A stretch of DNA of 64,000 bases from positions 1 through 64,000 of the forward strand of contig JAIPDO010000014.1 of the NCBI GenBank assembly GCA_021737645.1, in the 5' to 3' direction. Source of the DNA: Desulfarculaceae bacterium. GTDB lineage: Bacteria > Desulfobacterota > Desulfarculia > Desulfarculales > Desulfarculaceae. Under the pieces are notes generated by a model. The model saw only the letters and a list, made by a program, of their open reading frames with translations. It was not told the DNA's origin and did no database searches. Shown piece after piece: positions 12,274-45,098 of this stretch (the first letter of the stretch is position 1; every line of letters begins with the position of its first letter). A program made the position numbers and the translations under genes.

Positions 12274-13326
12274 CTACGCAAGCCAGGCGCTCCGGTCCTG
12301 ATGCGACCAGTAGTCCGTGGCTCCACCATGCTCCTTGGCATCTAGGGCGCGAAGAACCACCTCCGGGGTGGCGGGCACCTCGTGAATCCAAACCCCCACC
12401 GCGTCGTGGATAGCCGAGATGATGGCAGGCACCGGCGCGGTGGCGCTGCCCTCGGAAAATCCCTTGGCTCCCTTGACCCCCATGGGGTGGGGCACCTCTT
12501 GGATGCCGTGGATCAGCTCGGGCGGGTAGTCCATGAAGGTGGGCATGGGGTAATCGGCCAGGGCCTCGATGCCGTGGGTCGGGTCCGGGTAGTGGGGGAA
12601 CAGGTTTTCCCGCAGCGCAAGGCCCATGCCTATCTGCAAGCCGCCGTTGATCTGCTGCTTGACCATAAGCGGGTTGATGGCCTTGCCCACCTCCCATACC
12701 TGCACCAGCTTGGTCACCTCCACCTCGCCGGTGCCGGTGTCCACGCTCACCTCGGCCACGCAGCAGCCAAAGGATATGACGCTCTCCTGGTCCAGATAGC
12801 CGGTCTCGGGGTCGTGGCCCTGCACCGGGGAGGGTTGCCAGGCTCCCGTTCCCACCAGGATCACGCCCTCGCCCAGGTTGGCGATCATGCCGATATCGGC
12901 GAAGGTCATGTGGTGGTGGGGATTGTCCTTGGCAAAGGCCTTGCCGTCGGCCAACTCCACATTTCCGGCGTCTATCTCCAGGCGATGCGCGGCGAAGGCG
13001 GCTATCTTGGCCCTGAGGTCCTTGGCCGCCTCCACCACCGCATGGGGGTCCACCAGGGTAACCCGGCTGGCCGCGCTGCCCGCGCTGAGCGGGGCCAGGT
13101 CGTCGGAGCGGTTGCTGGCATACACCGTGGCGATATCCACGTCCATGGCCTCGGCGGCCACCTGCCGCAGCATGGTCAAGGCCCCCTGGCCGAGATCCAC
13201 CGCCCCTACCTTTAAAAACAGGCTGCCGTCGGGTTTTAGCTGAATGATGGCCTGGCTGGGGTCGCCGCCGCCTTTTCTTCCGGTGGGGTGCAACACCAGG
13301 CACATGCCCACGCCGTTCTTTTTCAT
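12274..13326 (-). CDS. Molybdenum hydroxylase, C-terminal half of molybdopterin subunit (NdhM-like), set 1
   Basis: 350 residues corresponding to the C-terminal half of a xanthine-dehydrogenase-family large subunit. GGGDPSQA and LGQGALTMLRQ near the N-terminus and KGAKGFSEG near residue 295 are visible; the Glu of the latter matches the catalytic Glu of the family. It overlaps the N-terminal-half gene by 4 nt (ATGA) and has its own GGGAGG Shine-Dalgarno, so it is a designed split and not a frameshift. The enzyme hydroxylates a carbon beside a ring nitrogen or carbonyl using water. The set lacks a FAD subunit gene. The final residues (ATDYWSHQDRSAWLA) extend beyond the usual end. Confidence 0.9.
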   Translation of the reverse strand: MKKNGVGMCLVLHPTGRKGGGDPSQAIIQLKPDGSLFLKVGAVDLGQGALTMLRQVAAEAMDVDIATVYASNRSDDLAPLSAGSAASRVTLVDPHAVVEAAKDLRAKIAAFAAHRLEIDAGNVELADGKAFAKDNPHHHMTFADIGMIANLGEGVILVGTGAWQPSPVQGHDPETGYLDQESVISFGCCVAEVSVDTGTGEVEVTKLVQVWEVGKAINPLMVKQQINGGLQIGMGLALRENLFPHYPDPTHGIEALADYPMPTFMDYPPELIHGIQEVPHPMGVKGAKGFSEGSATAPVPAIISAIHDAVGVWIHEVPATPEVVLRALDAKEHGGATDYWSHQDRSAWLA

Positions 13327-14642
13327 GATGCCTGCCTCCCCCGCGAACTCATGGACATGAGCTTGTCCGGCAGCTTTATGCCTGCCAGTTCCGCCGCCTT
13401 TTTCATGGCTTCCAGGGCCCCGGCCCCGCGCACTTTGTAGCCGGTGACTCCCTGGTCTCCGTCGCGCCAGGCATTGGCGAAGCGCAACTCCCAGGGGTCC
13501 ATGCCCAGGGCCTCGGCCACCCGGTTCATGTGAATCTCCGAGGCGATCTGGCCGTTGATAACCGAGAAGCCGCGCATGGAGCTGGATATGGGCCGGTTGG
13601 TGAATATGGTGCGCGCCGTCACTTTGACGTGCGGGAAGTCATAGGGCCCCGGCGCGAACATGGCGCACTTTTCCAGGCCATAGGGCGACATGCCCGCATA
13701 GGCCCCGGTGTCGTGCCAGATGTCGATGCGGCAGGCAGTGAGGCGGCCGTCGTTTTTCACCCCGGTCTTGAAATCCAGCACAAAGGCCCCGCGTTTGGTG
13801 GTGAACTGCAAGTCCTCTTCCCGGCTCAGGCGGTACTTGACCGGGTGGCCGAACTTGAGCACCGCCAGGGCGGCGATGTGATCGGTGTGGATGTCGTTCT
13901 TGCCGCCAAAGGCCCCACCCACCCGGCCGCCGATATAGCGGATCTGGCTCATGGGCATGGCCAGGATGGCGCAGAGCATGCCCAGATGGGCGTAGATGGT
14001 CTGGCTGACGGTGTGGATGACCAGACGGTCCATTTCATCGCGATAGGCCACCGACACGTTGGTCTCCATGGGGGCGTGGTCCTGCACTCCGGTGGAGTAG
14101 CGGCCATGGATCACCTGATCGGCCTGGGCCATGCCCTCGTCCACCCGGCCTTTGACCATGGTCACCTCGGTGATGTCCGGCGGGTAGTGCACCCATACGT
14201 TGCTCTTGGAATCGTGACGAACCAAGGGCGCGTCGGGCTTCATGGCCTCGAACATGTCGAATACCGGTGTCTGCTCTTCTATGTCCAGGCTCACCAGGGA
14301 AAGGGCCTCCAGGGCCGTGTCCTCGTCCGCGGCCACCACTGCCGCGATAGGCTCGCCGCGGTAGCGCACCCGGTTTTCAGGAGCCAGGACCGGCATGTCC
14401 TGGAAGCGGCCGTAGGCGTTCTTGCCGGGTATGTCCTGGGCGGTGACAAAGCCCACCACGCCGGGAACCGTCATGGCCTTGGAAAAATCCAGATTTTTGA
14501 TGACACCTTTGTGCACCGGGCTGCGCAGCACCTTCACGCATTTCATGCCTGGCACCTTGATGTCGTCCACGTAACGCACTTTGCCGGTCACATGGCCTTG
14601 GGCATCGTAGCGCGGCATGGCCTTGCCGATGTATTGGTTCAT
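13323..14642 (-). CDS. Molybdenum hydroxylase, N-terminal half of molybdopterin subunit (NdhL-like), set 1
   Basis: 439 residues matching the N-terminal half of the large subunit of xanthine-dehydrogenase-family enzymes. Present are HVTGKVRYVDD (about 17), DHAPMETN (substrate or cofactor channel), RVGGAFGGKND (molybdopterin loop, about 240) and SSMRGFS. Normal large subunits are about 750-800 residues in one chain. Here the chain ends at residue 439 and continues as the next gene, as in Eubacterium barkeri nicotinate dehydrogenase. It is the middle gene of the FeS/Mo-N/Mo-C operon, transcribed away from the HAAT importer. Confidence 0.92.
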   Translation of the reverse strand: MNQYIGKAMPRYDAQGHVTGKVRYVDDIKVPGMKCVKVLRSPVHKGVIKNLDFSKAMTVPGVVGFVTAQDIPGKNAYGRFQDMPVLAPENRVRYRGEPIAAVVAADEDTALEALSLVSLDIEEQTPVFDMFEAMKPDAPLVRHDSKSNVWVHYPPDITEVTMVKGRVDEGMAQADQVIHGRYSTGVQDHAPMETNVSVAYRDEMDRLVIHTVSQTIYAHLGMLCAILAMPMSQIRYIGGRVGGAFGGKNDIHTDHIAALAVLKFGHPVKYRLSREEDLQFTTKRGAFVLDFKTGVKNDGRLTACRIDIWHDTGAYAGMSPYGLEKCAMFAPGPYDFPHVKVTARTIFTNRPISSSMRGFSVINGQIASEIHMNRVAEALGMDPWELRFANAWRDGDQGVTGYKVRGAGALEAMKKAAELAGIKLPDKLMSMSSRGRQAS

Positions 14643-14654
14643 GGCCTTGCCCCC

Positions 14655-15122
14655 CTACTCGCCCTTGCGGGCCGTGTCCAGAATGGCCTGGGTTATCTCC
14701 TCGTAGCATCCGCAACGGCACAGGTTGCCCGACATCTCCTGGGCGATCTCCTGACGCTGGGGATGAGGGTTTTTGGCGAGCAAGGCCGTGGCGCTCACCA
14801 GCATGCCCGAGGTGCAAAAGCCGCACTGGCTGCCACCGTGGGCCATGAAGGCCTCCTGCAGGGGCTGCAATTCGCCTTCCCGGCTAAGCCCCTCCACGGT
14901 GACCACCTGCTTGCCTTCCACGGTGAGCGCGCAAGTGAGGCAGGCGCGCACCGCCGTACCATCGAGCAACACGGTGCATGCCCCGCAGTCCCCGCTGTCG
15001 CACCCTCGTTTGGGGCTGGTCACGTCCAGCTTTTCCCGCAGTACGTCCAACAGGCTGTCGCTGGGCTTGACCAATGCCTGCACCGGCGCGCCATTGAGTT
15101 GAAAACTAAGTATATGAGTCAT
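14655..15122 (-). CDS. Molybdenum hydroxylase [2Fe-2S] subunit, set 1
   Basis: 155 residues with two [2Fe-2S] domains: a plant-ferredoxin-type N-terminus (GCDSGDCGACTVLLDG) and an all-helical domain (CGFCTSGM and CRCGCYEEI). The last motif is CRCGCY where most relatives have CRCTGY, which places an extra Cys near the cluster. It passes electrons from the molybdenum site to FAD. No FAD subunit gene is in this operon, so it may use the FAD subunit of set 2 (26408) or another acceptor. It is the first gene of a minus-strand operon with a candidate promoter about 320-350 nt upstream. Confidence 0.93.
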   Translation of the reverse strand: MTHILSFQLNGAPVQALVKPSDSLLDVLREKLDVTSPKRGCDSGDCGACTVLLDGTAVRACLTCALTVEGKQVVTVEGLSREGELQPLQEAFMAHGGSQCGFCTSGMLVSATALLAKNPHPQRQEIAQEMSGNLCRCGCYEEITQAILDTARKGE

Positions 15123-15430
15123 GGGGATGGAATACTCCTCCGCAAATAATGCCTCGACAAGCGCCGGGCTGGTTTTTCGGTGCGTTAAGTTCCCGCAGCC
15201 ATCCGGCCTGCCCGGCGCGCCTTGCTGAAATACTACCCTGAAGAAAGCAAAAGCGTCATGCCCTAAACGGATTGCAACGTCGGGGGCGACGCTACAATCT
15301 GCCCAACATGCGAAATATATTGATTATACACCTGACCATCTCATCCTGACCGGCTGTGAGCGACAATCACACGCATCGCATCGCCGGGCCGTCATGCCTC
15401 CAAGCCCGCCGGACACCTTTATATATCGTA

Positions 15431-15441
15431 TGATACTATCA
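15431..15441. promoter_or_regulatory. Candidate operator O1 (set 1 hydroxylase promoter)
   Basis: TGATA-C-TATCA, a perfect 5-bp inverted repeat. It shares TACTATCA with operator O2 and lies just downstream of the -10 position of the minus-strand promoter, where a bound repressor would block transcription. Confidence 0.5.
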
Positions 15442-15469
15442 ATTAGCATCCCTCTGGTTAAACTGTCAA
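15441..15469 (-). promoter_or_regulatory. Candidate sigma-70 promoter for molybdenum hydroxylase set 1
   Basis: TTGACA at 15469-15464 on the minus strand, with a weak -10 (TAATTG) 18 nt downstream. A perfect -35 with a poor -10 and an adjoining palindrome suggests a regulated promoter. Confidence 0.4.
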
Positions 15470-15618
15470 CCGAAAAGGCCAAAGCGCTTCCCACTGGCCG
15501 CCAGGGCAAGTCTATTTAGAGTTTTAATATGTTATTAATAACTGTTATGGGCCTTAAATATTTTTTGGCCATTTTGTTTTTCCCGGTTTTTTTTTACCTC
15601 TGGCCGGCACATCGGGGC

Positions 15619-15648
15619 TTGACACGCAAAATCATACTTTGATAGTAA
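15619..15648 (+). promoter_or_regulatory. Candidate sigma-70 promoter for the HAAT importer operon
   Basis: Perfect TTGACA at 15619-15624 with a TAGTAA-type -10 after 18 nt (15643-15648). The palindrome O2 overlaps the -10 and start site. Confidence 0.5.
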
Positions 15649-15657
15649 TGTACTATC
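15641..15657. promoter_or_regulatory. Candidate operator O2 (HAAT importer promoter)
   Basis: GATAGTA-ATG-TACTATC, perfect 7-bp arms. The inner GT...AC symmetry fits the general operator pattern of GntR/FCD regulators. Such a regulator is encoded at 20684, the first gene after the importer. Confidence 0.55.
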
Positions 15658-15751
15658 ATAAGACTTTATGGGGTTCCACTCGGAGCATTTCACCGGCATT
15701 CGCCCAGGGAACCTACGATTTTCCCTGCACTTTCTAGGTGTTTGGCTAACC

Positions 15752-16525
15752 ATGGCGGCAATGCTTCTGGAAGTACAACAAGTGGGGCTCAACTTCGGCG
15801 GGGTTCAGGCCCTGATGGATGTCAGCTTCTCGGTGTCTCAGGGAGAGTTGTTTTCAATTATCGGCCCCAACGGAGCAGGGAAAACTACTCTTTTCGACTG
15901 TATTTCAGGGCGTTATACGCCAAAAGGCAGCATCAGGATCAATGGGGCCGAGTTGGTGGGCCAAAAGTCACATTTGCGGCCTAAGCTAGGGATAATGCGC
16001 ACCTTTCAAAACATCGCCTTGTTCCCCAACGAAACCGTCGAGGACAACGTCCTTGTGGGTAGCGACTACCGGCTTCGCAGCGGCCTGCTGCGTTCCTGCC
16101 TTTACTGGAGCCCTTTGGGTTGCAGCCGCCAGGAAGGCCGCCACCGTGCCCAGGCGCGGGAGATCATGGCCGAGCTTGGAGTGGAGCAATTCGCCGATGT
16201 GCCCGCCTCGGAGCTGGCCTACGGCACCCAGAAAAGGGTGGAGCTGGCCCGCGCGCTGGTGGCCCAGCCCGACCTGTTGCTCTTGGATGAACCGATGGCC
16301 GGCATGACCTCCGGCGAAAAGATGGAGATAGCCGCCCTGGTGCAAAAGCTCAATCAGGATCGGGGCATCACCGTGGTGATGATCGAGCACGACATGGGGG
16401 TGGTGATGGAGATATCTCACCGCGTTTTGGTGTTGGATTTTGGCCAACGAATCGCCTTGGGCCCCCCTCTGGAAGTAATTGAAGACCCTCAAGTACGCCG
16501 GGCTTACCTGGGTGATACGGTCTGA
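15752..16525 (+). CDS. HAAT ABC transporter ATP-binding protein, LivG-type (importer 1)
   Basis: 257 residues with Walker A GPNGAGKTTLFD (about 40), ELAYGTQKRVELARAL as the signature region (LSYG-type, typical of LivG), Walker B LLLLDEPMAGM and the H-loop IEHDMGVV. LivG-type ATPases power uptake of branched-chain amino acids, amides, urea or aromatic acids. The frame extends upstream to 15668, but ATG 15752 or 15761 gives the normal family N-terminus. It is the first gene of a plus-strand operon LivG-LivH-LivM-LivK-LivF, an order with the ATPase first. The substrate is probably what the downstream enzymes degrade. Confidence 0.93.
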   Translation: MAAMLLEVQQVGLNFGGVQALMDVSFSVSQGELFSIIGPNGAGKTTLFDCISGRYTPKGSIRINGAELVGQKSHLRPKLGIMRTFQNIALFPNETVEDNVLVGSDYRLRSGLLRSCLYWSPLGCSRQEGRHRAQAREIMAELGVEQFADVPASELAYGTQKRVELARALVAQPDLLLLDEPMAGMTSGEKMEIAALVQKLNQDRGITVVMIEHDMGVVMEISHRVLVLDFGQRIALGPPLEVIEDPQVRRAYLGDTV

Positions 16526-16538
16526 GGTTAGGTAAGCA

Positions 16539-17426
16539 ATGGATTACTTCCTAGGCCTGATCATCAACGGAATCGTGGTGGGGAGCATCTATTCCATGGT
16601 CGCTCTGGGCCTGGTGCTCATCTACAAAGCCACCGAGGTGGTGAACTTCGCTCAGGGCGAGTTGCTGATGATCGGCGCCTATATTTGCCTTGAGATAATC
16701 CAGGTCACCGGCATGCCTTTTCTGGTCTCGTTTCTCATGACCATGGGATTCATGGTCATCCTGGCCCTGGCTATAGAGCGCTTGGTGCTTCGGCGCATGA
16801 TGGGCGCTCCCGCCTTGGCGGTGATCATGGTCACCATCGGCATCGGGATCATCTTGCGAGCAGTGGTGCTTGGGGTGTGGGGCGCCACCTCCATACCTTT
16901 TCCCGAGGTGTTTCCCCGCCAGGGAATCGACTTGGGTGTGGTCACGGTCAGTCAACTTTATTTGTGGTCGTTCATGCTCTCCTTGGCCTTCATGGCCATG
17001 TTCGGGGCATTTTTCAAATTCACCCGCGTGGGGTTGGTTATGCGGGCCACGGCCAGCAGCCGCAAGGCGGCTGAAAGCATGGGCGTGCCCCTGACCAAAA
17101 TATTCGCCATCGCCTGGATCATCTCGGCGGTGGTTTCCGGGGTGGGAGGGGTGCTCACCGGCAACATCGCCGGGCTAAGCCCAGAGCTTTCCTTTTATGG
17201 CGTGAAGGTGTTTCCGGCGGTGATCCTCGGTGGCCTGGACTCCATCGTGGGAGCAACGATCAGTGGGGTGATCATCGGGGTTCTGGAAAATTTGGGCGGC
17301 GGATACTTGAAGGACCTCACCGGCCTGCACGGGCTGGGTCCGGTGGCCCCATTCTTCATCCTGGTGGCGATCCTGTGGGTGCGTCCCACCGGCCTGTTCG
17401 GCCGTAAAGACATCGAGAAGCTTTAG
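16539..17426 (+). CDS. HAAT ABC transporter permease, LivH-type (importer 1)
   Basis: 295 residues and strongly hydrophobic, with about eight membrane helices and LivH signatures near the N-terminus (GIVVGSIYSMVALGLVLIYK, VVNFAQGELLMIGAY). A cytoplasmic coupling loop (MRATASSRKAAESMGVP) contacts the ATPases. It forms the channel with LivM. It starts 13 nt after LivG and is followed 11 nt later by LivM. Confidence 0.94.
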   Translation: MDYFLGLIINGIVVGSIYSMVALGLVLIYKATEVVNFAQGELLMIGAYICLEIIQVTGMPFLVSFLMTMGFMVILALAIERLVLRRMMGAPALAVIMVTIGIGIILRAVVLGVWGATSIPFPEVFPRQGIDLGVVTVSQLYLWSFMLSLAFMAMFGAFFKFTRVGLVMRATASSRKAAESMGVPLTKIFAIAWIISAVVSGVGGVLTGNIAGLSPELSFYGVKVFPAVILGGLDSIVGATISGVIIGVLENLGGGYLKDLTGLHGLGPVAPFFILVAILWVRPTGLFGRKDIEKL

Positions 17427-17437
17427 GGGATGGCGTT

Positions 17438-18469
17438 GTGATCGAAACAGTCCTCCGCGGCAGGCCCCTGTTGGCCGACAGATTCGACCGCATCGGCGCG
17501 GTGGCCCTCATCGCGTGCCTCGCCGTGGTTTCCCAGTTCATGGGGGACTACCACCTGGCCCTGCTCACCCAGATCACCGTCTTCGCCCTGTCGGCCATGG
17601 GCCTGAACATACTTTTGGGCAACACCGGCATGATTTCCATTGCCCACGCGGCCTTCATGGGAGTCGGGGCGTTTTCTTCCGCCTACCTCATTCAGAACCT
17701 GGGCCTGCCCGCCCTGCCGGCCGTTTTATTGGCCGGTCTCATCACCTCGGTGGTGGGCATGGTCTTCGGCCTTCCCAGCCTCCGCCTCAAGGGGGTGTAT
17801 CTGGCCATGGCCAGCTTCGCCGCCCAGATCATTCTTTATTGGGCCTTCGAGCAGTCCCGCTGGCTCACCGGCGGTCAGGACGGCCGCTTCGCGGAACGCC
17901 CGGTGATGCTGGGCATCAGTTTCATGGACAGCCACCGTTTCTACCTGCTGGCCCTGGCCTTTGCCGTGCTGGGAGCGGTGGCCAACCTCAATATCGAACG
18001 TTCGCGTCTGGGACGCGCCTTCAACGCGGTACGGGATCGCTCCCAGGCCGCGGAAATGATGGGCGTCAACGTTTTTCGCACCAAGATGGCTTCCTTTGGC
18101 CTGGCCACCTTTTATGCGGGAGTGGCGGGAGCCCTGTTCGGGCAATACCTGGAATTCGTGGCCATACAGGCTTTCAGCCTATCCGTGTCCATCCAATTTC
18201 TGGCCCTGGTGATTATCGGGGGGCTGGGCTCCCTGGCCGGATCGGTGCTTGGCGCGGCTTTCATCGTCCTGGTTCCAGAAATCTTGGACACCATCATTTT
18301 GATGTTTTCCCATAACACCGGCGAAATGGCCCCCATACGCCTGGGGGTGTTCGGTTTGATTGTAGTCGTTTTTTTGCTCTTCGAGCCGCAGGGCCTGGCC
18401 CGTGCCTGGAACCGTACCCGGCAATGGGCCCTGAATCACACCGGCAAGGGGAGCCAAACCCGCTCATGA
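17438..18469 (+). CDS. HAAT ABC transporter permease, LivM-type (importer 1)
   Basis: 343 residues with many membrane helices. LivM features include LNILLGNTGMISIAHAAFMG, FGLPSLRLKGVYLAMAS and the coupling segment AVRDRSQAAEMMGVN. The GTG start at 17438 lies 11 nt after LivH. It pairs with LivH as the heterodimeric translocation pore. The C-terminus is a basic tail after the last helix (FEPQGLARAWNRTRQW). Confidence 0.93.
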   Translation: MIETVLRGRPLLADRFDRIGAVALIACLAVVSQFMGDYHLALLTQITVFALSAMGLNILLGNTGMISIAHAAFMGVGAFSSAYLIQNLGLPALPAVLLAGLITSVVGMVFGLPSLRLKGVYLAMASFAAQIILYWAFEQSRWLTGGQDGRFAERPVMLGISFMDSHRFYLLALAFAVLGAVANLNIERSRLGRAFNAVRDRSQAAEMMGVNVFRTKMASFGLATFYAGVAGALFGQYLEFVAIQAFSLSVSIQFLALVIIGGLGSLAGSVLGAAFIVLVPEILDTIILMFSHNTGEMAPIRLGVFGLIVVVFLLFEPQGLARAWNRTRQWALNHTGKGSQTRS

Positions 18470-18584
18470 ATCTTCACCTCCCAGATAACTCCAGCAGCGG
18501 GAGTACTGGCAATTTTACGGCGTTTGCCCCGGCGGAAGCCGCCAGTGACCAAGCTAGAGATTTAGTAACGCAAAGGAGGAAGAC

Positions 18585-19727
18585 ATGAAACGGAAATGGT
18601 TCTTTGGCATGGCCCTGGTCGCCATGGCCCTACTCGTGGTGGGCACGACCGCTCAGGCCGAAATCGTGCTGGGCGGCATATCCAACCGCACTGCGCCCAC
18701 GTCCGACTCGGGCATCCCGCACATGGACGGGGTGCTGGCCGCCTGGAAGTGGATCAACGCCAACGGGGGCATTGACGGCGAGAAGGTTAAAGTAGTGGAG
18801 ATTGAATGCGGCTACGACGTTCCCAAGACCGTGGCCGCCTTCAAGAGGCTGGCGGGCCAGTACAAAGTGCCCCTGGTGCACGGCTTCGGCACCCCGGATT
18901 CCATCGCCGTCATTCCCTTCAGCACCAGGACCAAGACCATCTATATGCCCGTGTCCTATGCCAAGGAGATGGTGGACTCCAAAAAGGCGCCTTACTACTT
19001 CATGACCAACGCCGACTACTCCACCGCCGGCCGCAGCGCGGTGCAGTTCGTCAAGCACAAGAACGGCAACCTGGCTCTGATCTACAACCCCGGCGGCTTT
19101 GGCGAAGCCCCCATTGCCGACATCAAGGATGAAGCCAAGAAGGACGGGGTGGCCGTCGTGGCCGAGGAGAACATCGGTTACGTGCCCACCGACGCGGTGC
19201 AGCAGGTGCTCAAGTTCAAGAAAGCCGGCGCCAAGTACATCTGGATGGGCAACACCGACAGCGCCATGGCCGTCTTGGCCAAGGACCTGAAAAAGCAAGG
19301 CGACAACGCAAAGATCATCGGAAACGTATATGCGGGCACCGAGGCCTTCATCAAGAATGCCGGCCCCGATGCCGAGGGTCACTACACCATGTACGGATCG
19401 GTCCCCTACGGCAGCACCAACACCCCGGCCATGAAGGCCATCGAGGCCTCGGGCTACCCGGATAGGGCCAACACCCACTTCATCCGAGGCTGGGCGCAGG
19501 CCATGATGGCCGCCGATGCCATGCGCATGCTCAAGAAAGCGGGCAAGCCCATCAACGGGCCCAACCTTAAATGGGCCTTCGAGCAGATGAAGGATTACTC
19601 ACCCGGCGGTTTGGTGCCGCCCATCACCTTTACCCCCACCGATCACCGCGCCTCCATGGTGGTGCCGGTGTACCAGGTGCAAAACGGCAAGTGGGTGAAG
19701 GTCTGGGATAACACCCTGCCCCGGTAG
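18585..19727 (+). CDS. HAAT periplasmic substrate-binding protein (importer 1)
   Basis: 380 residues. A signal peptide (about 1-25; KRKW, hydrophobic core, TAQAEI cleavage region) is followed by a type I periplasmic-binding fold of the Peripla_BP_6 family (EIVLGGISNRTAPTSDSGIPH, NANGGIDGEKVKVVEIECGYD). A strong AGGAGG Shine-Dalgarno is present. It determines the specificity of importer 1. The ligand is unknown; the pocket differs from classical LivJ, and neighbouring enzymes suggest a cyclic or hydroxylated organic acid. A perfect stem-loop follows the gene, probably stabilising its mRNA relative to the downstream LivF. Confidence 0.93.
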   Translation: MKRKWFFGMALVAMALLVVGTTAQAEIVLGGISNRTAPTSDSGIPHMDGVLAAWKWINANGGIDGEKVKVVEIECGYDVPKTVAAFKRLAGQYKVPLVHGFGTPDSIAVIPFSTRTKTIYMPVSYAKEMVDSKKAPYYFMTNADYSTAGRSAVQFVKHKNGNLALIYNPGGFGEAPIADIKDEAKKDGVAVVAEENIGYVPTDAVQQVLKFKKAGAKYIWMGNTDSAMAVLAKDLKKQGDNAKIIGNVYAGTEAFIKNAGPDAEGHYTMYGSVPYGSTNTPAMKAIEASGYPDRANTHFIRGWAQAMMAADAMRMLKKAGKPINGPNLKWAFEQMKDYSPGGLVPPITFTPTDHRASMVVPVYQVQNGKWVKVWDNTLPR

Positions 19728-19748
19728 GGAGCCATATAAGCAATAACC

Positions 19749-19775
19749 TCCGGCCGGGCCAAGCGCCCGGCCGGA
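19749..19775 (+). other. Intercistronic stem-loop after binding-protein gene (importer 1)
   Basis: TCCGGCCGGGC-CAAGC-GCCCGGCCGGA, perfect 11-bp stem, between the binding-protein stop and LivF. No T-run follows. Such hairpins commonly protect the upstream binding-protein message and lower downstream expression. Confidence 0.6.
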
Positions 19776-19805
19776 CCGGAAACACTCAGGCGGGAAACGC
19801 GGCGC

Positions 19806-20573
19806 ATGCTACAGGTGCAGGACCTCAGGGTAATCTACAACCGGGTCGTCCGGGTGCTGGACGGCATCTCCTTCGAGGTGCCGGCCGGACGCATGGTGGC
19901 CTTGTTGGGAGCCAATGGGGCAGGCAAGTCCACCGCTCTAAAAGCGGTTTCGGGCATGTTGCGTAGCGATGGCGGGGCGGTGGCCTCCGGGCGGGTGCTT
20001 CTGGAAGGCCGGACGGTCACCGGCTACAGCGCGGTTCGCATGGTGCGCCTGGGAGTGATGCATGTCATGGAGGGCCGCTTCCTGTTTCCGGACCTGACGG
20101 TGAAGGAAAACCTGGAGATGGGCGCCTACTCGCAGAAGGACCGGCGCCGCATCGCCAAGGACTTGGCCCAGTGGCTGGAGTTCTTCCCCCGTCTGGCCGA
20201 ACGCAGATCCACCCCGGCGGGTTATCTCTCCGGCGGCGAGCAACAAATGCTGGCCATCGCCCGGGCCCTCATGAGCCGCCCCCGCATGGTTTTATTGGAT
20301 GAGCCCTCCATGGGCCTGTCCCCCCTGTTGGTGCGGGAGGTTTTCCGCATCATCCGCCAGATACAACAATCCCAGGGCCTGGCTTTTCTGTTGGTTGAAC
20401 AGAATGTGAAACTGGCCCTGGAGATAGCCAGCTACGGCTACGTGCTGGAACAAGGTTGCATTCGGATTGAGGGAACTTCGGATGAGCTTAAACAAAACAA
20501 GCATTTACAGGATTTCTACCTGGGCATCAACGGCAACGGAACCGATCGCTGCCAGCAGGCGGCGCCGCAATAA
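19806..20573 (+). CDS. HAAT ABC transporter ATP-binding protein, LivF-type (importer 1)
   Basis: 255 residues with Walker A GANGAGKSTALKAVSG, signature YLSGGEQQMLAIARAL, Walker B MVLLDEPSMGLSP and H-loop VEQNVKLAL, the VEQN form typical of LivF. It starts at the ATG at 19806 and completes the five-component importer with LivG. The C-terminal tail (NGNGTDRCQQAAPQ) is a little longer than usual. Confidence 0.93.
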   Translation: MLQVQDLRVIYNRVVRVLDGISFEVPAGRMVALLGANGAGKSTALKAVSGMLRSDGGAVASGRVLLEGRTVTGYSAVRMVRLGVMHVMEGRFLFPDLTVKENLEMGAYSQKDRRRIAKDLAQWLEFFPRLAERRSTPAGYLSGGEQQMLAIARALMSRPRMVLLDEPSMGLSPLLVREVFRIIRQIQQSQGLAFLLVEQNVKLALEIASYGYVLEQGCIRIEGTSDELKQNKHLQDFYLGINGNGTDRCQQAAPQ

Positions 20574-20683
20574 GCTCGAGGTTATTGATGCTATTGGTAT
20601 ATGATAGGACGCGTCACCCAATTAACTTGTGAGGTCTCTCAGCAACGGCCATTTGGTGACCTATAACCTGCATGCGAGGAAAA

Positions 20684-22844: not shown

Positions 22845-22846
22845 AT

Positions 22847-23734
22847 ATGAACCTGCGCTTCACCCCCACGGTGCGGGGGCTCCTGGAAGGAGCCTGCGAT
22901 ATTCACATTCACTCCGCGCCCGACGTATACCCGCGCATCATGAACGATGTGGAGCTGGCCCAGTGCGCCCAGGAAGTGGGCATGCGCGCCATCCTCATCA
23001 AAAACCACTGGACCGAAACCGCCGCCAGGGCCCAGGTGGCCAGCGATGTCACCGGCTTCCCGGTGTTCGGCGGGGTAGCCATGAACCTGTCGGTGGGCGG
23101 GGTCAATCCCCAGGCGGTGGGCCCGGCGCTCAAGATGGGGGCCAAGACGGTGTGGATGCCCACCCTGCACGCCAGGGAGTTCGTGGCCAACAAGAGCCAC
23201 GTCAAGAACCTGGCCGGGGAGCTCAGCGCGGACCTCAAGGGCCTATACCTGCTGAAGGACGACGGCAGCCTCATGGACGAGTGCTACGCCATCTTCGACC
23301 AGATTATCGCCCACGGCTCATCCCTGGCCACCGGGCACATCAGCAAGCCCGAAGCCAAGGTGCTGGTGGCCGAGGCCGCCAAGCGCGGGGTCAAAAAGAT
23401 CGTGGTCACCCACCCCATGGCCAGCTTCGTCAACTACAGCGTGGATGAGATGAAGGAGCTGTTGGACCTGGGCGCCACCTGGCTGGAGCACGTTTTCAAC
23501 GACACCACCCGCCAGGTGGGACACCCCATCACCCGCGAGGCCATGTTTGAGGGCATGAAAGCGGTGGGCGCCGAGCACTGCATTATGAGCACCGACAGCG
23601 GCCAGTGGCTCAACCCCATCCCCGCCCAACAGATGGGCATCTACATCACCGACGTTTTGAACTTCGGCTTCAGCCAGGCCGAGGTGAAGAAAATGGTGCA
23701 AGACAACCCCGCGGCCATGCTGGGCCTGGAATAA
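22847..23734 (+). CDS. DUF6282-family, amidohydrolase-like TIM-barrel protein
   Basis: 295 residues. The N-terminal DIHIHSAPD provides an HxH metal motif. Downstream candidates are TGHIS (about residue 164), VTHP (about 188) and STDSGQ (about 248), the order of metal ligands in amidohydrolase-superfamily barrels (HxH, His, His, Asp). This supports a metal-dependent hydrolase; I know of no established reaction for the family. ATG 22847 is 2 nt after the LarA-like stop, so the two are probably translationally coupled. In this island it is the best candidate for ring or amide hydrolysis after hydroxylation. Confidence 0.8.
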   Translation: MNLRFTPTVRGLLEGACDIHIHSAPDVYPRIMNDVELAQCAQEVGMRAILIKNHWTETAARAQVASDVTGFPVFGGVAMNLSVGGVNPQAVGPALKMGAKTVWMPTLHAREFVANKSHVKNLAGELSADLKGLYLLKDDGSLMDECYAIFDQIIAHGSSLATGHISKPEAKVLVAEAAKRGVKKIVVTHPMASFVNYSVDEMKELLDLGATWLEHVFNDTTRQVGHPITREAMFEGMKAVGAEHCIMSTDSGQWLNPIPAQQMGIYITDVLNFGFSQAEVKKMVQDNPAAMLGLE

Positions 23735-23745
23735 GGACATACATC

Positions 23746-24639
23746 ATGAGCACGAAAATCGGTTTCATCGGCCTGGGCCAGATGGGCAAATGGATGGCGA
23801 TCAATCTGGTGAAGGCCGGATTCGACACCACGGTGTTCGATCTGAATCAGGCGGCGGTGGATGAGCTGATCCAGGCCGGGGCCAAGCAGGCGGCCAACCC
23901 GGCCGAGCTGGCCCAGGACAATGAGTGGGTGTTGCTCAGTCTGCCCAACACCGCCATCGTGGAAGAGGTCATTTTCGGTAAGGACGGCTTGGCCTCCACG
24001 GCCCAGCCCGGACTGATCATCTGTGACTGCGGCACCACCAGCTATCTGCCCACCCTGGAGCTGGCCGAGCGCCTGGCAGGGCAGGGCGTGGTTCTGGTGG
24101 ACGCGCCGGTGTCGGGCATGGAGGCCAGGGCCATCAGCGGTGAGCTGACCGTCATGTACGGTGGCTCATCCGAGGTGTTCCAGGCGCTCACCCCGGCCTT
24201 TGAGGCCATGGGCAACAAGGTGCTCAACATGGGCCAGGTGGGCAGCGGCCAACTTACCAAGCTGGTGAACCAGCTTCTGTTCAACATCTCTTGCGCGGCC
24301 ATCGCCGAGATACTTCCCATGGCCACCAAGCTGGGGCTGGACCCGGAGAAAGTTACCCAGGTGGTGACCACCGGCACCGGGCGCAGCTTTGCCGCCGAGT
24401 TCTTCGCGCCTCTGGCCCTGGAGGGCGTGTTCGATCAGGGCTATCCCCTCAAGCACGCCTACAAGGACATGATCAGCGCGGCCGAAATTTCGGCCAATAA
24501 ACAGATTCCCCTGCCCATGACCTCCGCCGCCACCACCACCTATCAGATGGCATTGGCCGAGGGCCATGGAGACCTGGGCAAAGGCGCCATGTTCAAGGTG
24601 TTCGAGCGGCTGCTGGACGTGGAGTTCAGGAAAGTTTAG
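23746..24639 (+). CDS. NAD(P)-dependent beta-hydroxyacid dehydrogenase (3-hydroxyisobutyrate dehydrogenase family)
   Basis: 297 residues. An N-terminal Rossmann fold ([17 protein letters not shown]; GxGxxG) is followed by a helical C-terminal domain. Catalytic signatures are [11 protein letters not shown] (substrate loop) and [13 protein letters not shown], with the catalytic Lys in the TKLVNQ segment (about residue 171). Relatives oxidise or reduce 3-hydroxyisobutyrate, tartronate semialdehyde or 2-(hydroxymethyl)glutarate. The last is made in nicotinate fermentation, which also uses a split molybdenum hydroxylase. Substrate is not assigned. It starts 11 nt after the DUF6282 gene. Confidence 0.9.
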
Positions 24640-24641
24640 GT

Positions 24642-26294
24642 ATGGCCAAACATCGCGGCGATGCCGCCGACATTACCGAAGCCTATTACCGGGGGCTCAT
24701 GCACTCGGTGGGCTACCGCTCGGCCGATTTGGCCAAACCCATGATCGCGGTGGTCAACTCCTTTACCGAGGTGAACCCGGGTCATTCGCCCCTGCGCGAT
24801 TTGGCCGCGCGGGTAAAGGAAGGCATCTGGGCCGCCGGGGGCGCGCCGGGCGAGTTCAACGTGCCCGCCCCCTGTGACGGCATGGCCCAGGGACCGGGGC
24901 AGCGCTACATTCTGCCCCAGCGCGACCTCATCGCCGGCAGCATCGAGGCCATGGTGGCGGCCCACGGATTTGAGGGCATGGTCATGCTGGCCTCCTGCGA
25001 CAAGATCATTCCCGGCATGCTCCTGGCCGCCGCCCGTCTGGATCTCCCCACGGTGTTCATCACCGCCGGTGCCATGCTGCCCTGCCGCCAGGGCGAGCGC
25101 CGGGTGGTGACCAGCGACCTCAAGGAGGCCATCGGCAAGCGGCGCAACGACGAGATGGACCAGGAGACCTTCCTGGGCTGGCAGGAGAGCTTCTGCCCCA
25201 CCGCCGGGACCTGCTCCATGATGGGCACGGCCAACACCATGGGCTGTTTCTTGGAGGCCGCTGGACTGGCCCCCTTTGGCTCGGCCACCATGCTGGCCTT
25301 TGCCGCGGCCAAGGTGCGCCAGGCCCGGGACGTGGGCGAGGCCGCGGTGGAACTGGTGCGCCGCGGGGTGAGCTTCCGATCCCTGCTGGGCCACGGCTCC
25401 CTGGCCAACGGCGTGAAGTACGTCTCCGCCTCTGGCGGCAGCACCAACGCGGTGCTGCATCTGATGGCCCTGGCCCGCCGCCTGGACCTGGAAATGGACC
25501 TGGCCGCCTTTGACCGGCTCCAGGCATCGGTGCCGGTGGTGGCCAAGTTCAAACCATCCAGCGCCTACAATCTGGAGGATTATCACGCCGCCGGCGGGGT
25601 GCCTGTTCTACTCAAGTCCATCGCCCGGCACCTGGACCTGAGCGCGCCCCTGGCCATGGGCGGCATCCTGAAGGATGCCCTGGAGGCCGCGCCCGAGCCG
25701 GACGGTCAGGTGATCCACCGCGCCGACGATCCCCTGGCCTCGGACGGCTGCTTCGGCCTGCTTACCGGCAGCCTGGCCCCGGCCGGGGCGGTGGTCAAAA
25801 AGACTGGGGTGGAGCCATCCATGCTGGTGCATCGCGGCCCGGCGGTGGTGTTCGATTCCGAAGAGGACGTGCGGCGCTTCCTTATGGAAAAACAAGTCAA
25901 GCCCGGCAGCGTGCTGGTGGTGCGCCACGAAGGGCCCAAGGGCGGGCCCGGCATGCGCGAGTTGTCCATACCGGCGGCCATGCTGGTGGGCATGGGGCTG
26001 CACACCTCGGTGGCCATGGTAACCGACGGGCGCTTCTCCGGGGCCACCCGTGGCCCTTGCGTGGGCCACGTCTCGCCCGAGGCTTGGGAGGGTGGCCCTC
26101 TGGCCTATGTGCAAGACGGCGACGAGATCGCCATAGACGTACCCGGCGGCCGTTTGGATCTGCTGGTGCCTGAGGATGAAATGAATCGCCGCAGGGATGA
26201 GGGCCTCAAGAGGCCGGAGCATCCCGCCCTCGGGGTGCTCGGGGCCTACCGGTCGGGAGTGGCCGGTGCCGAGGATGGAGCGGTTTGGTTATAG
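24642..26294 (+). CDS. IlvD/Edd-family dehydratase
   Basis: 550 residues of the dihydroxy-acid/6-phosphogluconate dehydratase family. Iron-sulfur Cys candidates are in VPAPCDGM (about 72), [10 protein letters not shown] (about 118) and [18 protein letters not shown] (about 186-203). C-terminal signatures [19 protein letters not shown] and [13 protein letters not shown] match the swivelling domain. Such enzymes remove water from a 2,3-dihydroxy acid to give a 2-keto acid. A role in isoleucine/valine synthesis is unlikely: no ilv genes are adjacent and it sits 2 nt after a catabolic dehydrogenase. It more likely acts on a sugar-acid-like or polyhydroxy intermediate. Confidence 0.88.
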
Positions 26295-26407
26295 AGTCGT
26301 TTTTTAGGTTGTAGTAAAGCGGGAAAACAAGGCCTGCTCACGATGAGTTGAAAAGTCGACACAAGGTTTTTACTTGTTTTCAATTCCATATCAGGAGGAG
26401 ATCTGTC

Positions 26408-27256
26408 ATGGCTGAAGGTGAATTCTTCCGGGCCGCCAGCCCACAGGAGGCGGCCGGTCTGCTGGCCCAACACGGCGGGTCCGCTCGTGTGTTGGCCGGG
26501 GGAACCGACCTCATGGTCGCCGTCAACAAGCGCATGTTCAAACCCCAAGTTATCATTTATCTTGGCGACGCCGGGATGAGCGGCATCAGCCAGGAAGGGG
26601 ATGCTTTGCTCATCGGCGCGGCTACGCCCCTAAGCGTGATACAGGCCTCGCCCCTGGTGGCCGACAAAACACCGCTGTTGGCCGCGGCCATCAAGCAGAT
26701 GGCTTCCCCGGCCATCCGCAACGCCGGAACCATCGGCGGCAACCTGGCCAACGCTTCTCCGGCGGCGGACACGGCCACGCCTCTGTTGGCTCTGGGCGCG
26801 TCCCTTAAGCTGGTGGGCGCCAAGGGCGAGCGCGAGGTGCCCCTGGCCGAGTTCTTCACCGGCCCTGGCCAGAGCGTGCTGGGAGCCGACGAGATCATCG
26901 CCCAGGTGAAGGTGCCGGCCCAGCCGGCCGAGGCCAAGTGGGCCTACCGCAAGGTGGGCAAGCGCAAGGCCCAGAGCCTGTCCGTGGTGTCGGTGGCGGT
27001 CTACTGTTCCATTAGTGGCGGCCAGGTGAGCGGGGCGGCCATCGCCCTGGGCGCGGTGGCCCCCACCCCCCTACTGGCCCAAGATGCGGCGGGCCTGCTC
27101 CAAGGCAAGACCCTGGACGAGGCGACCATCGCCGCGGCGGCCAAAGCAGCGGCCGAGGCCACCAGCCCCATCGATGACGCGCGAGGCACCGCCTGGTATC
27201 GCAAGCGGGCCTCCGAGGCTGTGGTCAAGCAACTTCTCACCGAGCTGGCCGGCTAG
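26408..27256 (+). CDS. Molybdenum hydroxylase FAD subunit (NdhF-like), set 2
   Basis: 282 residues of the CO-dehydrogenase-type flavoprotein family. The FAD motifs are VLAGGTDLMVA (about 28) and RNAGTIGGNLANASPAADT (about 103). It accepts electrons from the FeS subunit and passes them to NAD+ or another carrier. The ATG at 26408 has GGAGGAG upstream; the frame extends to 26348 without family similarity. A 113-nt gap after the dehydratase could hold a secondary promoter. It is the only FAD subunit in the window and could also serve the FAD-less set 1 hydroxylase. Confidence 0.92.
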   Translation: MAEGEFFRAASPQEAAGLLAQHGGSARVLAGGTDLMVAVNKRMFKPQVIIYLGDAGMSGISQEGDALLIGAATPLSVIQASPLVADKTPLLAAAIKQMASPAIRNAGTIGGNLANASPAADTATPLLALGASLKLVGAKGEREVPLAEFFTGPGQSVLGADEIIAQVKVPAQPAEAKWAYRKVGKRKAQSLSVVSVAVYCSISGGQVSGAAIALGAVAPTPLLAQDAAGLLQGKTLDEATIAAAAKAAAEATSPIDDARGTAWYRKRASEAVVKQLLTELAG

Positions 27257-27269
27257 AAAGGAGGGCTCC

Positions 27270-27737
27270 ATGCACACTCTGGAACTCACCGTAAACGGTC
27301 AGGGCCACAAGGTGGAGGTGGGCCTCAAGACCACCCTGCTGGAGGTCCTGCGCGACAAACTGCACATCACCAGCCCCAAGGTGGGCTGCAACACCGGCGA
27401 CTGCGGCACCTGCTCGGTGCTCTTAGACGGCGTTCTGGTGCGCTCTTGCATCACCAACGCCCTGTCGGTCCAGGGTAAGTCGGTCACCACCCTGGAAGGC
27501 ATCATCGAGCCCGGCGACATCCATCCGCTGCAAAAGGCCTTTCACGAGAATTACGGCAGCCAATGCGGCTTCTGCACCCCGGGCATGATCCTGGCCTCCA
27601 AGGCCCTGCTGGACGCCAACCCCTCGCCCACCCGGGACGAGGTCAAGGAGGCGCTCTCGGGCAACCTGTGCCGCTGCACCGGCTATGTCAAGATCATCGA
27701 CTCGGTGTTGGCCGCGGCCGATGAGATGAAGAGCTAA
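27270..27737 (+). CDS. Molybdenum hydroxylase [2Fe-2S] subunit (NdhS-like), set 2
   Basis: 155 residues with both [2Fe-2S] domains: GCNTGDCGTCSVLLDG (about 40-55) and CGFCTPGM plus CRCTGYVKI (canonical form, unlike CRCGCY in set 1). AAGGAGGG precedes ATG 27270, 13 nt after the FAD subunit. It links the molybdenum cofactor to FAD. Confidence 0.95.
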   Translation: MHTLELTVNGQGHKVEVGLKTTLLEVLRDKLHITSPKVGCNTGDCGTCSVLLDGVLVRSCITNALSVQGKSVTTLEGIIEPGDIHPLQKAFHENYGSQCGFCTPGMILASKALLDANPSPTRDEVKEALSGNLCRCTGYVKIIDSVLAAADEMKS

Positions 27738-27751
27738 GGGGGGGTGAGCAC

Positions 27752-29116
27752 ATGAGCAACGTAATAGGACAAAGAGTCACCCGTTACGACGGCATGGCCC
27801 ACGTTACCGGCGAAACCAAGTTCGTGGATGACCAAGTGGTGCCCGGCACCCTGACCGTCAAGGCCCTGCGCAGCCCGGTGAGCAAGGGCAAGATCAAGAA
27901 CCTGGACATCAGCGCGGCGGAGAAGATGCCCGGCGTGGCCGGTGTAATCACCGCCGCCGACGTGCCCTGCAACGCCTTCGGCCTGATTCCCGACCAGCCG
28001 GTGCTGGTTGGCGAGGACATCCGCTACAAGGGCGAGGCCATCGCCGCGGTGGCGGCGGTGGACGAAGACGCCGCCATGGAGGCCTTGGAAAAGATAGGCC
28101 TGGAGATCGAAGAGCAGCAGGCGGTGCTGGACCCCCTGGAGGCCATGAAGGATGGCGCGCCTCAGACGCGGCCCGAGGGCAACTTCCAGATTTGGGATGA
28201 CAACAACTACCGCCAGGTGAATCTGGGCGACGTGGACAAGGCCTTTGAGCAGGCCGACGAGATCGTGGAAAGCGTCCATCTGCATCCCTCGGTGGAGCAC
28301 GCTCCCATGGAGCCCATATGCTCCCTGGCGGTGCCCCACGCCGGACCCAAACTGACCATCTACACCGTCAGCCAGGCCCTGTATTTCCACCTGGGCATGC
28401 TCTGCGGCATTCTGCAGATGGAGCCCGGCGACCTGCACTGCAAGCAATGGAAGGCCAAGACCGGCAGCGCCTGGCGCCACAACACCGGCTACGCCGACCT
28501 GAACTACGTGGGCGGCACGGTGGGCGGCGGCTTCGGCGGCAAGAACGACATCATGGCCGACCACGTGGCCGCCCTGCTGGCGCTCAAGACCGGCCGGCCC
28601 TGCAAGTGGCGCTGGACCCGGGCCGAGGACCTGCTCTACAGCACCTTCCGGGGCGCCTGGCACATCACCATCAAGGACGCGGTGACCAAACAGGGCCGCA
28701 TCATCGGGCGCCAGATGACCTCCATCCGCGACGCCGGCTCCTACGCCTCGCTCAATCCCTATGTGGTGGAAAAGCACTGCTACCTAGGGGCGGGCCCCTA
28801 TTTCATACCCAACGTGAGGGTGCGAGGCTACTGCGTATATACCAACAAGCCTCCGGCCAGCTCCATGCGCGGCTTCGGCATCACCCCGGCGGCCTTCGCC
28901 ACTGAGGTGCAGATGGACCAGATCGCCGACCGCCTGGGCATGGACCCCTGGGAAGTGCGCATGACCAACGCCTTCCGCAAGGGGGAGTTCACCCCGACTA
29001 AACGAATTCTCAACAGTGTGGCGGTGATCGAGGTGCTGCAAAACCTGGCCGCCAAGGCGGGTGTGGAACTTCCCGGCCATCTGAAGGCCATGGCCTCCAC
29101 CCAGGAAAGGGGGTAG
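27752..29116 (+). CDS. Molybdenum hydroxylase, N-terminal half of molybdopterin subunit (NdhL-like), set 2
   Basis: 454 residues. Family motifs are HVTGETKFVDD, EHAPMEP (about 190), GGTVGGGFGGKND (about 255) and SSMRGFG (about 372). It ends where the large subunit would continue, and the C-terminal half follows as a separate gene 4 nt downstream. The two halves together equal a normal large subunit. This repeats the architecture of set 1, but sequence divergence between the two sets is considerable, so their substrates may differ. Confidence 0.94.
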   Translation: MSNVIGQRVTRYDGMAHVTGETKFVDDQVVPGTLTVKALRSPVSKGKIKNLDISAAEKMPGVAGVITAADVPCNAFGLIPDQPVLVGEDIRYKGEAIAAVAAVDEDAAMEALEKIGLEIEEQQAVLDPLEAMKDGAPQTRPEGNFQIWDDNNYRQVNLGDVDKAFEQADEIVESVHLHPSVEHAPMEPICSLAVPHAGPKLTIYTVSQALYFHLGMLCGILQMEPGDLHCKQWKAKTGSAWRHNTGYADLNYVGGTVGGGFGGKNDIMADHVAALLALKTGRPCKWRWTRAEDLLYSTFRGAWHITIKDAVTKQGRIIGRQMTSIRDAGSYASLNPYVVEKHCYLGAGPYFIPNVRVRGYCVYTNKPPASSMRGFGITPAAFATEVQMDQIADRLGMDPWEVRMTNAFRKGEFTPTKRILNSVAVIEVLQNLAAKAGVELPGHLKAMASTQERG

Positions 29117-29120
29117 CCAA

Positions 29121-30116
29121 ATGAAAAAGCGAGGAAAAGGACTAGCCGCGGGAATGTACCCTTCGGGCATGAGCGGCGGTGGCGACTCCAGCCAGGCCAT
29201 GGTCAAGGTGCAGCCCGACGGCTCCGCCGTGGTCACCGTGGGCTCATGCGACATCGGTCAAGGATGCAAGACCATCATGGCCCAGATCACCGCCGAGGTG
29301 CTGGGCATCGACTACGAGGCGGTGAAGGTGGTCAACGACGACACTGACAACTGCCCCCTGAGCTTCGGCACTTTTGCCAGCCGGGTCACCTACGTGGATG
29401 GCCTGGCCACCAAGTTGGCCGCCGAGGACGCCCGGCGCATCCTCTTTGAGGTGGCTGCGGTGATGTTGGAGTGCTCCGAGGACGAGTTGGAAGCGATAGA
29501 CAACCAAATCAGGGTGAAGGGCAACCCGGACAAGGCTCTGCCCATAGGCGAGGTGGCCGGAGCCGGCACCTTCGGCATGCGCAAGCTCATCCTGGGCCTG
29601 GGCCACTACATGCGCGACCCCGCAGCCATGGACCCGGAGACCGGCGAGTGCGATCCTTTCTGCACCCTGGCCTGGGCGGCAAGCTATGCCGAAGTGGAAG
29701 TGGATACCGAGACCGGCGAGGTGGAGATCTTGCGCCTGGTCAACTCCTATGACGTGGGCAAGGCCATGAACCCCACCCACCTGGAGGGCCAGATCGACGG
29801 CGGGGCCACCATGGGTGTGGGCGCGGCCATGTCCGAGAACCTGCACCCCTTCTACCCCAGCCTGGACTTCCAGCCGGACAACCTGGGCGACTACGCCATT
29901 CCCACCACCATGGACGTGCCTGACATGGAGTCGGTAATCTACGAATGCCCCTCCACCAACGGTCCCTACGGGGCCAAGGGAATCGGCGAAATGACCGCCA
30001 ACACCCCCGGTCCGGCCATAGTCAACGCCATCCACGACGCGGTGGGGATTTGGATAACCAACCTGCCGGCCACGCCGGAAAAGGTGCTGCGCGCCCTGGA
30101 CGCCAAGGGAGCCTAG
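29121..30116 (+). CDS. Molybdenum hydroxylase, C-terminal half of molybdopterin subunit (NdhM-like), set 2
   Basis: 331 residues with GGGDSSQA, CDIGQGCKT and YGAKGIGEM (about 288), whose Glu is the expected catalytic base. A strong AAAGGGGG Shine-Dalgarno lies before ATG 29121. It is the last gene of the plus-strand island and is followed by a clear terminator. Its domain order and length match the medium subunit of Eubacterium barkeri nicotinate dehydrogenase. Confidence 0.94.
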   Translation: MKKRGKGLAAGMYPSGMSGGGDSSQAMVKVQPDGSAVVTVGSCDIGQGCKTIMAQITAEVLGIDYEAVKVVNDDTDNCPLSFGTFASRVTYVDGLATKLAAEDARRILFEVAAVMLECSEDELEAIDNQIRVKGNPDKALPIGEVAGAGTFGMRKLILGLGHYMRDPAAMDPETGECDPFCTLAWAASYAEVEVDTETGEVEILRLVNSYDVGKAMNPTHLEGQIDGGATMGVGAAMSENLHPFYPSLDFQPDNLGDYAIPTTMDVPDMESVIYECPSTNGPYGAKGIGEMTANTPGPAIVNAIHDAVGIWITNLPATPEKVLRALDAKGA

Positions 30117-45096: not shown

Positions 45097-45098
45097 CC

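Follow-up and report, generated by a model that had tools for sequence, protein, structure and literature searches.

The DNA analysed here, a stretch of 64,000 nucleotides that we call the window, forms the beginning of contig JAIPDO010000014.1 in the draft genome of a Desulfarculaceae bacterium (GCA_021737645.1; 4.05 Mb in 114 contigs), and carries a putative catabolic island (Table 1). Every gene class listed for this island in a preliminary description, made from the sequence alone, was recovered by Pfam above cut-off. Two molybdenum (Mo) hydroxylases are encoded at its ends, set A on the minus strand (12274-15122) and set B on the plus strand (26408-30116), and both have their MoCoBD_1 and MoCoBD_2 domains on separate chains (L and M, respectively), as expected from the split of the NdhL/NdhM type described earlier. 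A FAD subunit is present in set B, and none lies beside set A. Between the two sets are found an importer of the HAAT type, a GntR/FCD regulator, and genes for a DUF2088 (LarA-type) protein named LarA*, a DUF6282 protein, a beta-hydroxyacid dehydrogenase of the 3-hydroxyisobutyrate dehydrogenase family (HIBADH), and an IlvD/Edd-family dehydratase. The last four genes are separated by gaps of 2, 14 and 2 bases, an operon-like spacing, and since the same order recurs in other bacteria, their grouping goes beyond chance.

Table 1. Features of the mobile island and the evidence for each assignment (positions in the window)
Feature	Position	Strand	Evidence
Set A chain M, second half of Mo-binding subunit	12274..13326	-	MoCoBD_2 PF20256, 200.6 bits
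Set A chain L, hammerhead + MoCoBD_1	13323..14642	-	PF02738 + PF01315; placed as sister part to B_L within the clade
Set A [2Fe-2S] subunit; no adjacent FAD subunit	14655..15122	-	PF01799, PF00111
HAAT-type ABC importer, livG-livH-livM-binding protein (18585-19727)-livF	15668..20573	+	Pfam
GntR/FCD regulator	20672..21418	+	Pfam
DUF2088/LarA-type (Lar_N) protein, LarA*	21540..22844	+	PF09861; residue table
DUF6282 protein	22847..23734	+	PF19799, 214.6 bits (scored on reading frame from 22841)
HIBADH/tartronate semialdehyde reductase family beta-hydroxyacid dehydrogenase	23749..24639	+	PF03446 + PF14833
IlvD/Edd-family dehydratase	24642..26294	+	PF00920 + PF24877
Set B FAD subunit	26408..27256	+	PF00941 + PF03450 (scored on longer reading frame from 26348; start codon inferred via a congener's reading frame)
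Set B [2Fe-2S] subunit, start 27270	27270..27737	+	PF01799 (scored on longer reading frame)
Set B chain L	27752..29116	+	PF02738 + PF01315
Set B chain M	29121..30116	+	PF20256
Mobile island	12274..30176		Limits of DNA homology to congener G007 (blastn)

Relatives in Desulfobacterales and Chloroflexi keep the order ferredoxin-AFOR-MoaD-DUF2088-DUF6282-HIBADH-IlvD-Mo hydroxylase, where AFOR stands for the aldehyde ferredoxin oxidoreductase family. They were gathered by a scan with a DUF6282 alignment, which yielded 21 loci; seven of these carry a DUF2088 gene and lie outside the eight genomes of the window's genus. An AFOR gene lies upstream in six of the seven (L022, L023, L025, L026, L027 and L028, where it is split into two open reading frames (ORFs); not in L036, which is fragmentary), and a ferredoxin-like gene precedes it in five of the six (the contig of L022 starts within AFOR). 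L023, L025, L026 and L027 each gave a match to a MoaD-like gene between AFOR and DUF2088. The DUF6282, HIBADH and IlvD genes come next in L022, L023, L025 and L026, followed by set B in the latter three (with chain M as two ORFs in L025); the L027 contig stops after DUF6282, and L028 carries different genes from that point on. Shorter forms also occur, consisting of DUF6282-HIBADH-IlvD (L029, L030 and L034, the contig of which starts within DUF6282) or of DUF6282-HIBADH (L020, L024). A second IlvD gene lies near the module in three loci: the copy of L026 exceeds the ilvD cut-off, is probably an ordinary biosynthetic gene and was rejected as a module member, and those of L030 and L019 (the latter cut by the locus end) fall under it. 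The AFOR protein of L023, from a Desulfobacteraceae metagenome-assembled genome, scores 360 bits against aldehyde ferredoxin oxidoreductase (1aor) versus 224.1 against the benzoyl-CoA reductase BamB, and a ring-reducing enzyme of the BamB type was dropped from consideration because of this lower score. The same locus carries an importer of the window's type, with a binding protein 74% identical. Two genomes of a distant family, near-identical in this region (G149 and G177), encode DUF2088 and a Mo hydroxylase in the order DUF2088-F-S-L-M, then a HAAT importer of the window's type (82% identity for livH, 68% for the binding protein), with a CUT1 importer ahead of DUF2088 and, in G177, a PdxA-family gene further out.

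DNA homology to the congener G007 amounts to about 87% over positions 12274-15139 and 21539-30176 of the window. Outside the island none was found within the 19-kb stretch of G007 compared, and the right edge (about 30,176) lies slightly beyond the end of the last gene. As homology stops at both 12,274 and about 30,176, the island is a horizontally mobile one. A truncated copy in a second congener, G005 (L011:7660-13138), points the same way: the match breaks off 38 bases into the HIBADH gene, an istB/istA-like pair follows, and another such pair in opposite orientation lies about 2.3 kb past the opposite end; we take both pairs to be IS21. Orthologues of the island IlvD are found in three of the eight genomes of the genus only (G000, G007 and G003). 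G002 has FCD-DUF6282-HIBADH with no DUF2088 in between and G004 has DUF6282-HIBADH amid other neighbours, both of them lacking an orthologue of this IlvD, and within the genus an AFOR orthologue (81%) occurs in G003 only.

The HAAT importer is not present at the corresponding place in the islands of G005 and G007. Across the window and these two congeners, A_L and LarA* share 88-93% identity, and chain M of the window's set A is 88% (G005) and 91% (G007) identical. The window's FCD regulator reaches only 75.4% with G007 (73% at the DNA level) and 72.5% with G005, although the regulators of G007 and G005 share 87.3%. Given this lower identity and the missing importer, importer and regulator appear to have been exchanged as one cassette, the regulator having probably come in together with the importer. 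The importer's place in the island, as first described, needs qualification: the two congeners lack it there, yet three lineages (the window, L023 and G149/G177), one of them a distant family, have it linked to DUF2088 and a Mo hydroxylase.

LarA* is homologous over most of its length to the malate racemase Mar2 (120.1 bits), in line with its earlier label as LarA-like, so far as the superfamily is concerned. In LarA, Lys184 attaches the nickel-pincer nucleotide (NPN) cofactor, His108 and His174 are catalytic, and Arg75 and His200 contact the cofactor, according to PMC7583248, in which three groups of the superfamily without conserved cofactor residues (groups 12, 13 and 16) are set aside. Our residue table applies these residue roles to printed alignments of the proteins, and covers 11 LarA* sequences, two of them from the distant family (the fragments L021 and L036 were left out of the count). 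The equivalents of Lys184, His108, His174 and Asp72 are Ser, Leu, Thr and Asn in all 11 copies; those of Arg75 and His200 are kept throughout, and that of Lys298 varies (K, R or E). Because of these losses we conclude that LarA* is no ordinary nickel-pincer racemase, and the label fails in this respect, but it could use the cofactor non-covalently. The host genome encodes a LarC-type nickel-insertion protein at another site, so that cofactor supply would be no obvious limit. The AlphaFold model of LarA* (pLDDT 53.8) was too poor, and no use was made of it.

The DUF6282 protein gave no phmmer match in the PDB up to E 10. Its structure model (pLDDT 86.8) is a beta/alpha barrel of the amidohydrolase superfamily, and its top fold matches include PLL-type lactonases and dihydroorotase, at about 14-18% identity in the matches listed. 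An HxH motif, two further His and an Asp are the mark of this superfamily; H20, H22, H189 and D250 are invariant, and H164 nearly so, in 19 DUF6282 sequences. The protein had rightly been called amidohydrolase-like, and from fold and gene context we propose that it is a lactonase or ring-opening hydrolase. On plasmids, C-N hydrolase genes lie near DUF6282 in 3 of the 11 regions examined. On the Thermus oshimai plasmid pTHEOS01 (L116), DUF6282 is found between a GntR regulator and PIG-L/aldolase genes, close to a catechol 2,3-dioxygenase gene, and is a candidate pyrone-lactone hydrolase. Haloarchaeal plasmids (L090, L093, L114) share a conserved cluster of BenE, DUF6282, PaaI thioesterase, CoA ligase and Mo hydroxylase, which possibly serves a furoate-like acid. 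The DUF6282 proteins of these plasmids are 32-39% identical to the window's. Different carriers lie near DUF6282 at other loci, e.g., an MFS carrier after DUF6282 in L028. Our literature search found no mention of DUF6282.

The L chains of the two hydroxylases (45% identity) fall into a single clade of split chains (100/100) that has an early branch from G149/G177, and the tree places sets A and B as sister parts of this clade, a rare one. Among solved structures, NdhL comes closest to these chains (304.6 bits versus 210.4 for aldehyde oxidoreductase, MOP). It is placed outside the A/B clade, where it groups (98/98 and 100/99) with the split chains L125 and L134, with fused chains and with MOP. 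The phylogeny of NdhL-like chains, which the preliminary description had suggested as a check, sets the clade apart from NdhL, as a forced grouping of A, B and NdhL is mildly rejected (approximately unbiased (AU) test, p 0.0285; tested after tree inspection, and with long branches meeting at NdhL). A forced grouping of A and B with MOP is neither rejected (p 0.169) nor supported by the tree. Of 395 genomes drawn from the phylum, 8 have strong matches to the clade (E up to 1e-140); of 301 from the phylum to which G441 belongs, only G441 itself does. Six of the eight positive genomes, all but G099 and G134, also count among the 41 that have DUF6282 (both counts taken as the same genome draw), a co-occurrence with a Fisher p of 2e-5, or 0.001 without the window's genus, kinship being ignored in both.

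The closest kin of A_L outside the island copies are L095 (from G003, same genus), L136 (G438) and L135 (G440). L136 adjoins a CUT2 sugar importer (Pfam and NCBIfam), L095 likewise, judged by 71-86% identity to the L136 genes, and L135 adjoins an SMP-30/gluconolactonase gene. In the other branch of the A part, to which the sets of G077 and G114 also belong, those of G441 and G442 (near-identical there) lie beside MMSDH and Fe-ADH genes. A-like sets at 57-60% identity are encoded in 4 of the 13 genomes of island loci, plus G003, with no match of this strength in the genomes of L023 (G439) and L028 (G443). The A-like sets of G003, G438, G440, G441, G442 and G114 adjoin a FAD subunit, unlike set A of the window. 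In the latter, the FAD subunit of set B may serve instead.

As for the remaining enzymes, the HIBADH-type protein scores 194.1 bits against tartronate semialdehyde reductase versus 184.7 against 2-hydroxymethylglutarate dehydrogenase (PDB), and reaches no NCBIfam equivalog cut-off. The IlvD/Edd protein has both the N- and C-terminal family domains (Pfam), and its closest solved structures are dihydroxy-acid dehydratases; it stays under the NCBIfam equivalog cut-off for dihydroxy-acid dehydratase IlvD (556.9 versus 618.15 bits). The host genome has four further IlvD matches outside the island (E up to 1e-100), and the island copy therefore need not serve amino-acid synthesis. For the binding protein of the importer, matches in the PDB were three generic binding proteins.

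We tentatively read the island, with a confidence that falls somewhat short of even, as a mobile module by which a small carboxylated compound is oxidised anaerobically via a lactone- or cyclic-amide-like ring. The gene families and their conserved order, the mobility, the lost nickel-pincer residues and the DUF6282 fold are seen in the sequences or the model; each reaction, the order of reactions and the substrate class are what we infer. The acid would be taken up by the importer (HAAT in the window, other carriers near other DUF6282 loci), and set B, a split Mo enzyme of the xanthine oxidase family, would oxidise a carbon bearing O or N to give an acid or a cyclic product (ester or amide). 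DUF6282 would then hydrolyse the ring open and the HIBADH-type enzyme would convert a beta-hydroxy acid to a semialdehyde, from which an aldehyde oxidoreductase (AFOR in relatives, possibly set A in this genus) would form an acid. Dehydration of a 2,3-dihydroxy acid by the IlvD/Edd enzyme would yield a 2-oxo acid, to be fed into central metabolism. LarA* would act alongside the Mo enzyme, probably without a covalent nickel-pincer cofactor. As the closest kin of set A lie beside sugar importers or a gluconolactonase gene, the substrate class leans to sugar-acid- or lactone-like (carboxylated, oxygen-rich) compounds; an N-heterocycle is possible without having specific support, and is kept in play by the amide-type hydrolase neighbours of some relatives. 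A bolder version, which we consider rather doubtful, is that LarA* is a racemase-family enzyme that abandoned its covalent nickel-pincer cofactor for a new reaction coupled to the distinct split hydroxylase clade, and that, together with DUF6282 in the role of a new ring opener of the lactonase type, it defines an anaerobic pathway so far undescribed, which mobile islands have carried through more than one phylum. The literature search returned no report of the module, and no paper combining four or all five of the gene names. The initial proposal of an undescribed catabolic route that includes a hydroxylase, an amidohydrolase-type protein and a beta-hydroxyacid dehydrogenase agrees with these results.

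Several observations weigh against this interpretation. HAAT importers are unusual for sugars, dihydroorotase, a cyclic amidase, scores on par with the lactonases in the fold search, and the fold matches place DUF6282 in a superfamily but do not identify it as a lactonase. Aldehyde oxidoreductases do not group with A and B in the tree. Elsewhere in the A part, the neighbours are C-N hydrolase and cupin genes (G077) or genes for YqeB, a MoeA-like protein and a hydrolase of the 'cyclase' family (G114), which would suit an N-compound equally. Set A is no simple replacement of AFOR, and the two were discarded as mutually exclusive alternatives, since A-like sets (57-60%) and the same AFOR coexist in five genomes (G003, G438, G440, G441 and G442). 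The module is not always whole either: set B was not found in G003, and DUF2088-F-S-L-M of G149/G177 has no adjoining AFOR, DUF6282, HIBADH or IlvD.

An N-heterocycle route is unlikely in our view, but comes closest among the alternatives. Nicotinate fermentation in Eubacterium barkeri involves NdhFSLM, an enamidase and a 2-hydroxymethylglutarate dehydrogenase, NdhFSLM being marked by a labile selenium at its Mo; in a similar pathway the Mo enzymes would hydroxylate the ring, DUF6282 would be the cyclic amidase in the enamidase role, and the HIBADH-type enzyme would resemble the latter dehydrogenase. The NdhL score, dihydroorotase among the top fold matches, the amino-acid/amide type of the importer, the neighbours in G077 and G114 and the C-N hydrolase genes of the plasmid regions are all consistent with it. 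Yet NdhL lies outside the A/B clade, the HIBADH-type enzyme is not closest to 2-hydroxymethylglutarate dehydrogenase, the extra redox gene of the relatives is of the aldehyde oxidoreductase rather than the BamB type, and IlvD/Edd is not known to take part in the nicotinate pathway. YqeB is uninformative: it is encoded in all eight genomes of the genus, island carriers or not, has no special meaning for the island and was ruled out as its marker. With LarA* devoid of the lysine and sugar-type genes next to the closest set A kin in addition, the original tie to nicotinate or another N-heterocycle is not upheld, and the literature search found nothing relevant on Desulfarculaceae with nicotinate.

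Slightly less likely still is that the route serves a furan, a pyrone or else an aromatic acid or aldehyde, and that DUF6282 opens an enol lactone in it, a step known from the degradation of furoate and pyrone-dicarboxylate. The Thermus aromatic cluster and the haloarchaeal BenE/CoA-ligase/Mo-hydroxylase clusters argue for such a role, as do the MFS carrier of L028 and the carriers near DUF6282 in L031 and L033, presumably TTT-like (a label taken from the sequences, not from a family scan). The plasmid proteins are, however, only distantly related to that of the window, and Pfam identified neither a CoA ligase nor a ring-cleavage family in the island proteins. Finally, the island could be an accretion of independently mobile cassettes (set A; importer and FCD; DUF2088 to IlvD; set B) that form no single pathway. 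This would account for the importer/FCD block that differs from G005 and G007, for kin of set A unlinked to the module elsewhere, for the partial arrangements of G002 and G004 and for the truncation by insertion in G005. We regard it as improbable, in view of the tight spacing from DUF2088 to IlvD, the order conserved across phyla, and the renewed association of DUF2088, Mo hydroxylase and the same HAAT importer in G149/G177.

Around the island, an ORF of the hydroxyethylthiazole-kinase family (11097-12236) ends 37 bases ahead of its left limit, and an enoyl-CoA hydratase gene (37752-38549) and a DUF362 gene (38721-39848) lie to its right. DUF362 genes also occur at L030:5016-6206 and L035:2055-3245, after IlvD or DUF6282, where no DUF2088 was matched; DUF362 and DUF2088 belong to one Pfam clan, as stated in PMC11770544. 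A probable surface polysaccharide locus lies further along (42043-50542), with three glycosyltransferase genes and a Wzt-type ABC gene.

These results provide candidate roles for two protein groups without assigned function, DUF6282 and the DUF2088 proteins without nickel-cofactor residues, as well as for a rare Mo hydroxylase clade, and caution that similarity alone is poor ground for names such as lactate racemase or nicotinate dehydrogenase.

With the E. barkeri cluster the island shares a split L/M Mo hydroxylase, an amidohydrolase-superfamily protein and a HIBADH-family dehydrogenase, but its hydroxylases belong to another clade, and IlvD/Edd, DUF2088 and, in relatives, AFOR come in addition. 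LarA* resembles the LarA superfamily, as presented in PMC7583248, in homology over most of its length and in the kept equivalents of Arg75 and His200, and differs from it in the Ser, Leu, Thr and Asn found for Lys184, His108, His174 and Asp72. DUF6282 is like PLL-type lactonases and dihydroorotase in model fold and in its conserved HxH, two later His and Asp, although identity in the matches listed is low. Non-phosphorylative sugar-acid pathways of the Weimberg/Dahms type, and the L-ascorbate route of Cupriavidus with its amidohydrolase-superfamily lactonase, follow a logic of importer, lactonase, dehydratase and dehydrogenase similar to that proposed for the island. Unlike in these sugar-acid routes, Pfam detected neither an aldolase nor a 2-keto-3-deoxy-acid dehydratase family in the island proteins, and oxidation would be carried out by Mo enzymes, joined by AFOR in relatives.

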